Shown here piece by piece: positions 22,555 through 25,658 of a stretch of 64,000 bases of DNA. Position numbers and translations under genes: made by a program. The DNA lies in NCBI GenBank assembly GCA_027619225.1, contig JAQCFW010000001.1, positions 118,135 to 182,134 of the forward strand, read 5' to 3'. How positions within the stretch are numbered: the first letter of the stretch is position 1; every line of letters begins with the position of its first letter. Below the pieces are notes generated by a model that had not been told where the DNA came from, did not search any database, and was given only the letters and a program-made list of their open reading frames with translations. Source of the stretch: Bacteroidota bacterium (GTDB lineage Bacteria > Bacteroidota > Bacteroidia > Flavobacteriales_D > Sanyastnellaceae).

Positions 22555-22683
22555 ATGTTTTATCGATATTTTTTAGCAATTCGTTGGGGTTTTCAGAATT
22601 TTTTCACTATATTTGTTATAATGCTATTCACACTAAATACATGTTGTTGTTGTTGTCCACTTAAAAGAGGCAGCCTAATATGA
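22555..22683 (+). CDS. Polycysteine leader peptide ORF (42 or 20 codons)
   Basis: A tiny ORF in the rodA-cysM gap. Read from the ATG at 22555 it encodes 42 residues. Read from the in-frame ATG at 22621 it encodes 20: MLFTLNTCCCCCPLKRGSLI, stop TGA at 22681-22683. Five consecutive TGT cysteine codons occupy 22642-22656. The inner ATG at 22621 is preferred because a perfect TATATTTG promoter box ends 5 bases before it, predicting a leaderless message; the longer form could be made from transcripts running through from rodA. The peptide is not expected to act itself: ribosome pausing at the Cys codons would gate the terminator downstream. The next genes make cysteine, which fits this role. I found no other reason for five Cys in a row. 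Confidence 0.8.
   Translation: MFYRYFLAIRWGFQNFFTIFVIMLFTLNTCCCCCPLKRGSLI
22584..22615 (+). promoter_or_regulatory. Cysteine operon promoter (TTG-N21-TATATTTG)
   Basis: TTG at 22584-22586, 21 bases, then TATATTTG at 22608-22615, a full match to the Bacteroidota consensus. The start of transcription would fall about 22620-22623, on the ATG at 22621. A TATAAT string at 22617-22622 overlaps but has no matching -35 and is not the usual form in this phylum. Confidence 0.6.
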
Positions 22684-22728
22684 ATACGTGATAGATCTAA
22701 AATAGAATCGTAATCTTTTAAAGCCTCT
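22661..22728 (+). promoter_or_regulatory. Antiterminator pairing of the Cys attenuator
   Basis: AGAGGC at 22666-22671, inside the leader ORF 10 bases after the Cys codons, is the exact complement of GCCTCT at 22723-22728, the core of the terminator's left arm. Next to it TTAAAAGA (22661-22668) is the exact complement of TCTTTTAA (22714-22721). The first pairing excludes the terminator. A ribosome stalled at the Cys codons leaves 22666-22671 free, giving read-through. A ribosome that reaches the stop at 22681 covers it, giving termination. Confidence 0.7.
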
Positions 22729-22750
22729 GATAACATCAGGGGCTTTTTTT
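22720..22750 (+). terminator. Attenuator terminator before cysM
   Basis: An 11-bp stem (22720-22730 with 22736-22746; one G-U pair at 22726/22740) with a 5-base TAACA loop. Its right arm runs into a T-run that spans 22744-22750. It is a textbook intrinsic terminator. The T-run touches the first codon of cysM at 22751, so terminated transcripts would stop just before the gene. It may also end read-through from the mre operon. Confidence 0.88.
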
Positions 22751-23692
22751 ATGCAAAATAATATGACTGTTCCAACAATTAATCCTATGCTACAAGCTCT
22801 TGAAGAATTAAGGTGGCATATCGGCAATTGCCCAATGCATCATTTGGCAAACCTTTCTCCCAAGCCTGGAGTAGAAATTCACGTAAAGCTTGAGTGGCAA
22901 CAGTTCGGTGGATCTGTGAAGGCAAGACCTGCCTTTAATATCATCCATGACGCTGTCGTTTCTGGAGCTTTACGAGGAAGGAGCCTCCTGGACGCAACTT
23001 CTGGAAATACAGGAATAGCATACGCTATTTTTTCTGCCGCAGCAGGCATACCAGTGACTCTTTTTATACCAGAGAATGCATCGAAGGAAAGGAAGCATAT
23101 ACTTAGAGCTCTTGGTGTGGATCTCAGATTGACCAGTCCATTAGAAGGAACGGATGGAGCTCAGGCAGAAGCGCGTGAATTAGCTATGAAAAGCCCTGAA
23201 AAATTTTGCTATGTAGACCAATACGGGAATGAGGCAAATTGGAAAGCACATTACTATGGAACGGGACTAGAAGTTTGGCATGAAACCGCGGGAAGAATAA
23301 CACACTTCATAGCTGGCCTTGGTACCACAGGGACTTTTATGGGAACTGGCCGCAGACTTAAGGAATTAAATCCCGATGTGAGGCTAGTGGCGCTTCAACC
23401 AGAAACAGCACTACACGGATTGGAGGGATGGAAGCACCTTGAAACAGCACGGGTACCCGAAATATATGATGCAGGTGTGCCGGACGAAATGAGATTCGTA
23501 AGCACCGAGGAAAGCTACGCTATGATGCGACGAGCTGCCCGAGAAGAGGGACTTATTTTAAGTCCTTCAGGAGCTGCTAATCTCGCTGGAGCAGTTAAAC
23601 TAGCTGAGGAAATTGAAGAAGGGGTTGTCGTTACAATTCTTGCAGATGACGCAACTAAATACAGCGAAGTGATAAATTCAGTATTAAGATGA
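22751..23692 (+). CDS. cysM: CysM-like cysteine synthase (CysO-thiocarboxylate type)
   Basis: PLP enzyme of the fold-type II beta-replacement family, 313 residues. PLP lysine K57 sits in FGGSVKAR and the phosphate/substrate loop TSGNTG is at 83-88. AGLGTTGTFMGTGR and DQYGNEANWKAHYYGTG closely resemble mycobacterial CysM, which joins an activated serine to the thiocarboxylate of CysO rather than to free sulfide. The mec-cysO-moeZ neighbours support that role. The start could be the ATG at 22751, directly after the terminator U-run, or the ATG at 22763; neither has a Shine-Dalgarno. It overlaps mec by 4 bases. Whether it uses O-acetyl- or O-phosphoserine cannot be told. Confidence 0.88.
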   Translation: MQNNMTVPTINPMLQALEELRWHIGNCPMHHLANLSPKPGVEIHVKLEWQQFGGSVKARPAFNIIHDAVVSGALRGRSLLDATSGNTGIAYAIFSAAAGIPVTLFIPENASKERKHILRALGVDLRLTSPLEGTDGAQAEARELAMKSPEKFCYVDQYGNEANWKAHYYGTGLEVWHETAGRITHFIAGLGTTGTFMGTGRRLKELNPDVRLVALQPETALHGLEGWKHLETARVPEIYDAGVPDEMRFVSTEESYAMMRRAAREEGLILSPSGAANLAGAVKLAEEIEEGVVVTILADDATKYSEVINSVLR

Positions 23693-24117
23693 GTCATCAA
23701 TTTTTACACCTCGATGTGAATGAGGAATCTATGGTTGAGATGAAAGCACATGGAGAAGATGCATTTCCTAACGAGTGCTGCGGATTCTTCTATGGCGAGG
23801 AGAAGGATGATGTGAGATGGGTGACTCTTGCAAAGCGTATTAAAAATGTGAAAGAGGGTGACAGAAGACGCAGGTTCGAAATATCCGGAAAAGACTACCT
23901 CGGTGCCGAGAGATTTGCCACACAGGAAGGACTGACTCTCCTAGGAATCTATCACAGTCATCCATTACATCCCGCCATTCCAAGCAAGCATGATCTTGAA
24001 GTAGCCATGCCTTGGTTTAGTTACATCATCGTGAGCGTGGAACCTTCAGGGGTCAATCACGTGAGGTCTTGGCAATTAAACGAATTAAGAGAATTTGAGG
24101 AAGAAATAATAAAATAG
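23689..24117 (+). CDS. mec: Mec-type JAMM/MPN metalloprotease
   Basis: Zinc isopeptidase-like enzyme that in the CysO pathway releases cysteine from the CysO-Cys adduct. The 142 residues hold a complete JAMM motif: E29 in FPNECCGF, then H89-S-H91-P with S99 and D102. It overlaps cysM by 4 bases (ATGA). Because the carrier encoded next ends in GG-Ser-Lys, this protease may also trim those two residues to expose the diglycine, as related JAMM enzymes do for some sulfur carriers; that second role is inference. Confidence 0.9.
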   Translation: MSHQFLHLDVNEESMVEMKAHGEDAFPNECCGFFYGEEKDDVRWVTLAKRIKNVKEGDRRRRFEISGKDYLGAERFATQEGLTLLGIYHSHPLHPAIPSKHDLEVAMPWFSYIIVSVEPSGVNHVRSWQLNELREFEEEIIK

Positions 24118-24202: not shown

Positions 24203-24481
24203 ATGGCAACTTTAATAATTCCCACACCACTCAGAAAATTCACAAACGGAAATGCAGTATTTGAGGCATCTGCCACAAGCGTAAACGAGCTTTTACTCGC
24301 ACTATCTTCTGCAAACGCCGGAATTAAAAAGCATCTTTTTGATGATGCTGGAGAACTGAGAAGTTTCATTCGCGTTTATGTCGGCGATGAGGACATCAAC
24401 GAGCTAGATGGCGGCAACACTAAGATTGACGATGGCGACGAGGTTATTATAATTCCCGCTATCGCAGGAGGGTCTAAATAA
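24203..24481 (+). CDS. cysO: CysO-like sulfur carrier protein (ThiS/MoaD family)
   Basis: Small ubiquitin-fold sulfur carrier, 92 residues. It starts ATLIIPTPLRKFTNGNAVFE, has DVNEL-type spacing in DEDINELDGG and DDGDEVIIIPAIAGG typical of the MoaD/ThiS/CysO class, and ends AGGSK. Active carriers end in a free GG, which is adenylated and thiocarboxylated; here Ser91-Lys92 follow G89-G90. An 85-base A-rich gap separates it from mec and may favour high expression, sensible for a carrier consumed stoichiometrically. It sits 7 bases before moeZ, its likely activating enzyme. Confidence 0.9.
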   Translation: MATLIIPTPLRKFTNGNAVFEASATSVNELLLALSSANAGIKKHLFDDAGELRSFIRVYVGDEDINELDGGNTKIDDGDEVIIIPAIAGGSK

Positions 24482-24488
24482 ATTAAAC

Positions 24489-25658
24489 ATGTCGCATCAC
24501 AACATTACATTTTCAAAAGAAGAGTTAGAGAGATATAGTCGTCACCTGATTATTCCAGAGTTTAACATTGAAGGCCAAAAAAAGCTGAAAGCTTCCAGCG
24601 TTCTTGTCATAGGTTCAGGTGGGCTTGGTAGTCCATTACTTTTGTACTTAGCGGCGGCAGGTGTTGGACGTATAGGGATTGTAGATTTTGATACCGTCGA
24701 TGTATCTAACTTACAAAGGCAAGTGCTCTTTGGAATTCAAGACGTAGGAGTATCAAAAGCTGTGGCAGCAAGTAAGCGCCTCGCTTCTTTAAATCCACAT
24801 ATTTCAATCGAGGTCCACGATACTATGTTCACCGTTGAGAATGCCCGTAAGCTTGTTAAACAGTACGATGTAGTAGCAGATGGGACGGACAACTTCCCTA
24901 CACGTTACTTGGTTAACGACGCCTGTGTTCTTGAGGATAAGGTAAATGTCTACGCAAGTATATTCAGGTTTGAAGGCCAAGCTTCCGTCTTTAATGAGCT
25001 CCTGCCTGATGGCACACGTGGCCCTAACTACAGGGACCTTTTCCCTTCTCCACCACCACCAGGGCTTGTTCCTAGTTGTGCTGAAGGAGGAGTTATAGGA
25101 GTGCTTCCTGGAATCTTAGGGTCTATTCAAGCTCTCGAAGTTCTCAAGGTGATTTCAGGTATCGGGGATACCCTAAGTGGAAGACTCTTTTTATTCGACG
25201 CAACTGGATTCACTACACGAATCTTAAAAGTCCGGAAGAATAAAAACAACCCACTTAATGGTGAAAACCCAACCCAAACTGAGCTTATCAATTACGAGCA
25301 GTTCTGTGGGTTATCAGTGATCTCTGAGCAGCCTCGAGAGGTAGCAGAGATTAGCGTAAGTGAATTAGATAAGTGGCGAAAAGAAGGAGTGAGTCACCTC
25401 CTTATCGATGTTCGCGAACCCTACGAATACGGTATCGTTGAAATCGGAGGTGAGTTAATTCCACTTGCAACTGTACTTGAAAGCACAGACAGAATTCCTA
25501 AGGATATTCCAGTCGTTGTTCAGTGTAGATCCGGCGCAAGAAGCGCAAGTGCTATACGCGAACTCGAAGACACTCATGGCTACACTAACCTGGTGAATTT
25601 AACTGGGGGAATCTTAGGTTGGCAGGAGGAGATTGATTCCTCTTTGGCAAGATATTAA
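24489..25658 (+). CDS. moeZ: Adenylyltransferase/sulfurtransferase MoeZ-like
   Basis: Activates the carrier C-terminus as an adenylate and then transfers sulfur to it. The 389 residues contain a ThiF/MoeB E1-like domain (ATP loop GSGGLGSP at 42-49, RYSRH at 15-19, SCAEGG with C197) and a C-terminal rhodanese domain (about 285-389) with the active cysteine C346 in QCRSGARS. The CxxC zinc pairs of E. coli MoeB are absent, as in mycobacterial MoeZ, and the linker YEQFCGL is also MoeZ-like. Closes the operon cysM-mec-cysO-moeZ; convergent with odhB, 10 bases away. Confidence 0.92.
   Translation: MSHHNITFSKEELERYSRHLIIPEFNIEGQKKLKASSVLVIGSGGLGSPLLLYLAAAGVGRIGIVDFDTVDVSNLQRQVLFGIQDVGVSKAVAASKRLASLNPHISIEVHDTMFTVENARKLVKQYDVVADGTDNFPTRYLVNDACVLEDKVNVYASIFRFEGQASVFNELLPDGTRGPNYRDLFPSPPPPGLVPSCAEGGVIGVLPGILGSIQALEVLKVISGIGDTLSGRLFLFDATGFTTRILKVRKNKNNPLNGENPTQTELINYEQFCGLSVISEQPREVAEISVSELDKWRKEGVSHLLIDVREPYEYGIVEIGGELIPLATVLESTDRIPKDIPVVVQCRSGARSASAIRELEDTHGYTNLVNLTGGILGWQEEIDSSLARY

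Follow-up and report, generated by a model that had tools for sequence, protein, structure and literature searches.

How cysteine is sensed in Bacteroidota is, to our knowledge, a largely open question, and it is raised directly by one locus in the stretch of 64,000 nucleotides analysed here (the window), where a short reading frame with a run of cysteine codons and a terminator-like hairpin lie between rodA, which is immediately upstream here and in many relatives, and a set of cysteine genes. It is suggested here, and from the sequence comparisons set out below we regard it as very probable, that the leader, the hairpin and a complementary segment constitute a ribosome-mediated transcription attenuator, which would read charged tRNA-Cys before the cysM-mec-cysO-moeZ operon. 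The predicted attenuator offers a concrete and conserved answer to the question of cysteine sensing in Bacteroidota. Its parts in the window are the following.

22584..22586, + strand: TTG, candidate -33 element, with a 21-nt spacer to the -7 box
22608..22615, + strand: TATATTTG, a -7 box that fits the Bacteroidota consensus TAnnTTTG exactly, 5 nt before the leader ATG
22621..22683, + strand: leader ORF, MLFTLNTCCCCCPLKRGSLI and stop, 20 aa, start ATG conserved in near relatives
22642..22656, + strand: TGT x5, five Cys codons, presumed stall site; would act as segment 1 if a 1:2 helix forms
22661..22671, + strand: segment 2, putative antiterminator 5' strand, core AGAGGC at 22666-22671
22720..22731, + strand: segment 3, left arm of the putative terminator, core GCCTCT at 22723-22728, complementary to segment 2
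22735..22746, + strand: segment 4, right arm of the putative terminator, hairpin of -15.5 kcal/mol
22744..22750, + strand: T-run (7 T) of the terminator-like hairpin

The positions that an earlier note on this DNA had given for the five TGT codons, AGAGGC, the stop codon (TGA, 22681-22683) and the hairpin all match the sequence. The same note counted an 11-bp terminator; the hairpin itself stands, with arms that form 12 pairs, one of them G.U. It also left the leader start at either ATG 22555 or ATG 22621. When the window is aligned with 7 relatives, ATG 22621 is kept in 8/8 sequences, whereas ATG 22555, from which a 42-aa peptide would be read, is found only in the window and L005, and for this reason the leader is read here from 22621.

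The run of cysteine codons by itself would not be striking, given that in the window's genome the pattern TGY x4 has 25 matches at 22 places and the reversed pattern, as a control, has 15 matches. All but two of these places (20/22) are within ORFs of >=100 aa, the exceptions being the leader site and L065, where no M, V or L lies ahead of the Cys run in its stop-to-stop stretch. A chance origin is excluded because leader and hairpin are conserved as a whole set, and not because of the Cys run alone. Three stretches of this genome, around cysD, a second cysteine synthase and cysS, yielded no further poly-Cys leader with a hairpin; the remainder of the genome was screened for TGY x4 only. Folding the leader of the window in its entirety gives nothing unusual (z -0.93) and is uninformative as evidence.

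The earlier note placed cysteine genes directly behind the leader, and the Pfam domains of the four genes (PALP, Prok-JAB, ThiS and ThiF+Rhodanese) agree with this.

22763..23692, + strand: cysM-like cysteine synthase, first gene after the leader, conserved start, also readable from 22751
23689..24117, + strand: mec-like JAB-domain peptidase, gene order retained behind most leaders checked
24203..24481, + strand: cysO-like sulfur carrier of the ThiS/MoaD fold, from Pfam and gene order
24489..25658, + strand: moeZ-like protein with ThiF and rhodanese domains, from Pfam and gene order

In NCBIfam the first gene is nearest to the cysM model and the last to the MoeB/MoeZ models; because the scores for all four names are under the specific curated cut-offs, cysM, mec, cysO and moeZ are used here in the sense of nearest family and gene order. 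Position 22751, which had been taken as the start of cysM, was rejected: ATG 22763, 12 nt later, is the start common to 8/8 aligned sequences. The end of the hairpin is 4 nt ahead of ATG 22751 and 16 nt ahead of ATG 22763. In one genome (G012, loci L016/L099) the leader is kept before cysM but without mec, cysO and moeZ, and a sucB-like ORF on the opposite strand comes next.

At the level of sequence, two marks of an attenuator are present, a run of codons for the end product and a terminator-like hairpin before the first gene. In the mechanism that we propose, RNA polymerase would start a few nucleotides ahead of ATG 22621 and a ribosome would load at this nearly leaderless ATG. If Cys-tRNA is plentiful, this ribosome would reach the stop at 22681 and there mask AGAGGC of segment 2; segments 3 and 4 could then pair and transcription would end at the T-run. 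With scarce Cys-tRNA it would stall within 22642-22656 and leave segment 2 free, which could then form the 2:3 antiterminator before segment 4 exists, and transcription would continue into the operon. That the leader is translated, that ribosomes stall on its Cys codons, that transcription ends at 22750 and that read-through occurs when cysteine is limiting are steps that we infer.

The start of the leader bears on how such a ribosome might be loaded. The Bacteroidota promoter consensus is given as TAnnTTTG / TTTG, TAnnTTTG being the -7 box, in the available part of PMC7366714, and an exact TAnnTTTG is present upstream of the Cys run in 11/25 first or single leaders, compared with 5.1% in mononucleotide shuffles. 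In 8 of these 11 cases an in-frame leader ATG follows 5-8 nt past the box. The other 14 of the 25, including three relatives from the same genus, have no exact box; the same-genus relatives carry CATATTTG or CATCTTTG at its position. Because the box takes the -7 position, transcription is expected to begin within a few nucleotides of the ATG, and the window leader is probably leaderless, as in mycobacteria. Such starts would belong to a small class if Bacteroides thetaiotaomicron is a guide, where only about 3.7% of 5' UTRs are shorter than 10 nt (PMC7366714, in the part available). None of the 8 second copies in tandem arrangements has the exact box; these would be translated without such a start, and ribosome loading there would differ.

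The pairing between segments 2 and 3 is central to the proposal, and it was examined over a set of related elements. An automated scan gave 43 candidates, of which 30 were kept and 13 dropped by eye, these being for the most part located within other genes or distant from cysteine genes, together with two Lachnospiraceae cases and L022. Four elements that the scan had missed were added by hand (L009, which was seen in the sequence, the second unit of L013, L018 and L034), making 34, and with eight near-duplicates left out (L005, L017 and both units each of L135, L144 and L147) 26 elements remained. The complementarity of AGAGGC to GCCTCT, pointed out in the earlier note, is the core of the 2:3 helix, and its equivalent is built with other letters in other genera: GTCAGGAAGGGT:GCCCTTCCTGAC in L019, CGTGGAGC:GCTCCACG in L174 and GGTGAG:CTCACC in L034. 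When the terminator left arms were dealt among the 26 elements, the permuted 2:3 helices averaged -9.79 kcal/mol against -13.55 kcal/mol for the cognate ones, and 0/20,000 permutations were as good. A second set of 28 elements, one per genus and copy, comprising 8 from other families and 20 of the 26 (both L189 leaders stood outside the duplex test), gave -14.06 cognate and -9.80 kcal/mol permuted, again with 0/20,000. Within subsets the permutation result is weaker, with 150/20,000 for first copies (8), 475/20,000 for second copies (8) and 28/20,000 for single units (6). The cognate mean of the 26 is also to be compared with -6.12 for an upstream stretch of equal length and -9.13 for dinucleotide shuffles. 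In 22/26 the best partner of the left arm falls between the last Cys codon and 14 nt past the stop, a zone which averages one third of the scanned length.

Taken singly, 13/26 elements do better than their dinucleotide shuffles at p < 0.05. Weak ones are L009, the second unit of L013, L018 and g16b (p 0.38-0.97), and five others lie at 0.15-0.20. Of the 8 elements from other families, 4 were better than every one of 300 shuffles and the other 4 are at p 0.057-0.26; L186 is likewise counted as weak. In the second unit of L013 the predicted segment 2 ends 25 nt ahead of the stop, and in L009 33 nt ahead, distances too great for it to be masked by a ribosome that has reached the stop. An antiterminator exclusive with the terminator holds for the element set as a whole.

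Both of the states postulated for the switch were obtained by folding, with a ribosome footprint of about 12 nt past the A site used in masking. If the RNA is masked as far as the Cys codons and segment 4 is absent, 4.0-17.7 expected 2:3 pairs form across the 26 elements, and with a ribosome at the stop the 3:4 helix forms. At equilibrium 3:4 beats 2:3 in 24/26, and the switch must for this reason be kinetic; in trp attenuation the choice between helices is kinetic also. The 1:2 or protector helix, between the Cys codons and segment 2, is only partly predicted, at 0.35 in the window and with a paired fraction of 0.00-0.77 over the elements. The earlier note had proposed a search of the rodA-cysM region of relatives for conserved Cys codons with covarying stems, and the codons proved to be conserved while covariation is slight: RNAalifold on the 8 sequences gave one helix, in which 1/6 pairs has a double change. 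The outer two of these sequences align poorly in segment 2, which is why the element-wise permutation was used.

In the family to which the window belongs, 37 genomes were examined; a CysM orthologue of >=50% identity is present in 18, and 17 of these have visible upstream DNA; G007 (L011), with no upstream DNA, is left out of the count. Relatives with the terminator and no Cys-rich ORF were looked for and the opposite was found, since poly-Cys leader and terminator-like hairpin occur together in 17/17. They lie before cysM in 14 genomes and before a peroxiredoxin gene adjoining cysM in 3 (G018, G027 and G033), the gene of G027 having AhpC-TSA and 1-cysPrx_C domains. By locus, the peroxiredoxin gene sits between a tandem leader and cysM in L008, L013, L090 and L147. 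With a peroxiredoxin gene behind the leader, peroxide defence would fall under cysteine control in those genera.

The device is also present in L019, a single locus from another family of the window's order, and in L034, from a Chitinophagales MAG, which among 11 distinct loci of more distant relatives, Roseivirga included, is the only one with a leader within 1.5 kb. In a class-wide search of 395 genomes (CysM at E 1e-75) 16 passed, 13 of them outside the window's family. Of these 13 orthologues 9 have the device, 2 are cut by contig ends and 2 gave no leader. In seven of the nine it is directly before cysM, and in two it heads a longer operon ending in siroheme genes and cysM, with one leader in G103 (L187:6080-6270, + strand), where the first gene has nitrite/sulfite reductase domains, and with two leaders in series in G114 (L189:5700-6000, + strand), where the first gene, judging from its similar N-terminus, would be a nitrite/sulfite reductase as well. 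A sense intergenic leader was found at 1/30 cysD loci, before cysC-cysD in G166 (L256, - strand, Cys run near 2675 in + coordinates), and since this leader, MYSNMCCCMCIPL, with its hairpin precedes cysC-cysD, sulfate activation is likely also a target. Among cysS loci, taken as a control, 0/30 have an intergenic sense poly-Cys leader with a hairpin. One antisense intergenic match (L243, in the cysD set) indicates that chance matches do occur.

Across 33 leaders compared, the median length is 23 aa with 3-7 Cys each, and the remaining peptide differs widely. Their Cys codons are TGT in 124 cases and TGC in 34; third-position variation was dropped as an argument, being circular in leaders chosen for CCC. 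Two candidates from the scan deserve mention in their own right. L022 has, on its - strand at flipped position 619, a small ORF containing a CxxCC cluster together with a strong hairpin (-21.4 kcal/mol), and a distant CysM-like gene lies about 0.9 kb further downstream. In Lachnospiraceae (L056:2641-2694 and L057:2592-2645, + strand) a conserved leader ending in FRRNCCCCCE is followed by a T-run hairpin and directly precedes the gene for a PLP enzyme of Cys/Met metabolism (PF01053 for L056) and a gene similar to cysteine synthase. Because CTTGTTTCGT after the stop can pair with the hairpin left arm, as judged by eye, it is likely that these leaders represent a separate cysteine attenuator in another phylum.

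Within the family's 17 genomes there is one unit in 10 and two in series in 7 (G014, G018, G019, G025, G027, G028 and G033), where each leader has its own hairpin, the second one of G033 with a poor T-run. A pattern search of 61 family genomes, followed by selection of 40 stretches from the matches, added four tandem genomes (G060, G061, G067 and G068), which is a lower bound because the stretches were selected by hand. Letters similar to GGTTAATAC are often seen between the first hairpin and the second ATG (L010, L012, L014, L015 and L008), where they perhaps have a role in ribosome loading. With two units in series both terminators would have to be passed, and the result could be tighter repression or a steeper response.

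The distance from hairpin to gene is 4 to 72 nt for the last unit and 182-279 nt for the first units of tandem pairs, a 1-nt distance to a TTG in L009 having been set aside as a gene-finder artefact. These distances bear on a different reading of the locus, in which the hairpin acts on translation by hiding the start region of cysM, and a stalled ribosome frees that region, as proposed for mycobacterial poly-Cys leaders. In the window the hairpin is indeed close to cysM, and for mycobacteria the accessible text of PMC13236596 describes translation attenuation. Against this, the span up to 72 nt for last units is easier to reconcile with termination than with a hidden start site, the first tandem units are further away still, and a T-run stands behind the hairpin in nearly all elements. 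The T-run is poor in the second unit of L013, and it is offset in the second unit of L176, where it starts 4 nt past the stem. Control at the level of translation is on this evidence improbable.

A plain terminator for rodA, with the Cys-rich ORF encoding a small metal-binding or membrane peptide, would account for the position of rodA just upstream in the window and many relatives, and the 42-aa reading from ATG 22555 does contain a hydrophobic stretch. But leader and hairpin occur behind other upstream genes too, they come in tandem pairs and are placed before cysteine or sulfur genes, and neither the 42-aa reading nor the peptide outside the Cys run is conserved, so that we consider this explanation very unlikely. 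Least credible of all is a cysteine-sensing riboswitch or T-box with an incidental ORF, which a structured leader before a biosynthesis operon might bring to mind, since it is the Cys codon run that is common to the elements while the stem letters change, and neither the window nor 6 related loci show a match to any Rfam family at gathering score.

Attenuation of transcription by a ribosome on the Cys codons thus being the preferred reading, a broader proposal can be made with some, though clearly less, confidence. It seems rather likely that several families of this class share cysteine attenuation, in which leaderless poly-Cys peptides would guard operons for sulfate activation, nitrite/sulfite reductase and siroheme, peroxiredoxin and cysM-mec-cysO-moeZ, and that many lineages stack two attenuators for the same amino acid in series to make a two-gate switch, for which our literature searches found no published precedent. 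Four things go beyond the earlier note: the box of the promoter, a start that is probably leaderless, the occurrence of tandem copies and the wider set of genes.

With attenuators of the trp and his type the proposed device shares end-product codons in a short leader, a stop near segment 2, exclusive 2:3 and 3:4 helices and a T-run; it differs in that it would sense cysteine, is probably leaderless, often has two units for the same amino acid and has an uncertain 1:2 helix. Poly-Cys sORFs in mycobacteria were reportedly found to be leaderless by Canestrari in 2020, and the likeness to them lies in a poly-Cys ORF before cysteine genes and a likely leaderless start. If the leader peptide here is leaderless it would parallel the mycobacterial one, and the different output would suggest an independent origin. 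The mycobacterial leaders were predicted in 2005 with no conserved terminator hairpin, according to the part of PMC1262725 available, whereas here there is a terminator-like hairpin with an element-specific antiterminator. Translational control of them is reported in PMC13236596, where, in the same accessible portion, ilvB1 is described as a case of ribosome-mediated transcription attenuation.

Within the phylum, clues to leader-peptide attenuation before amino-acid operons are given for Flavobacterium psychrophilum in PMC9723704, whose available text specifies neither an amino acid nor a gene and mentions no case for cysteine. Our literature search found no cysteine attenuator described in Bacteroidota, a limited negative in that subscription literature was mostly outside its scope. 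A predicted Cys-codon attenuator that likewise ends in an intrinsic terminator is uORFC-8-2 of Rhodobacterales; as presented in the accessible part of PMC8632094, it has two Cys codons and precedes cysS, a tRNA synthetase gene, in Alphaproteobacteria, whereas the leader described here stands before the biosynthesis gene cysM. Tandem units for the same amino acid are the most unusual feature of the device, and they raise the question of what is gained from two terminators in series. The nearest printed case that we found is the Salmonella mgtCBR leader, which, in the excerpt of PMC3641672 available, has tandem attenuators with two short ORFs in one leader; that leader serves a Mg2+ transport operon, whereas here both units are for the same amino acid and each has its own hairpin.
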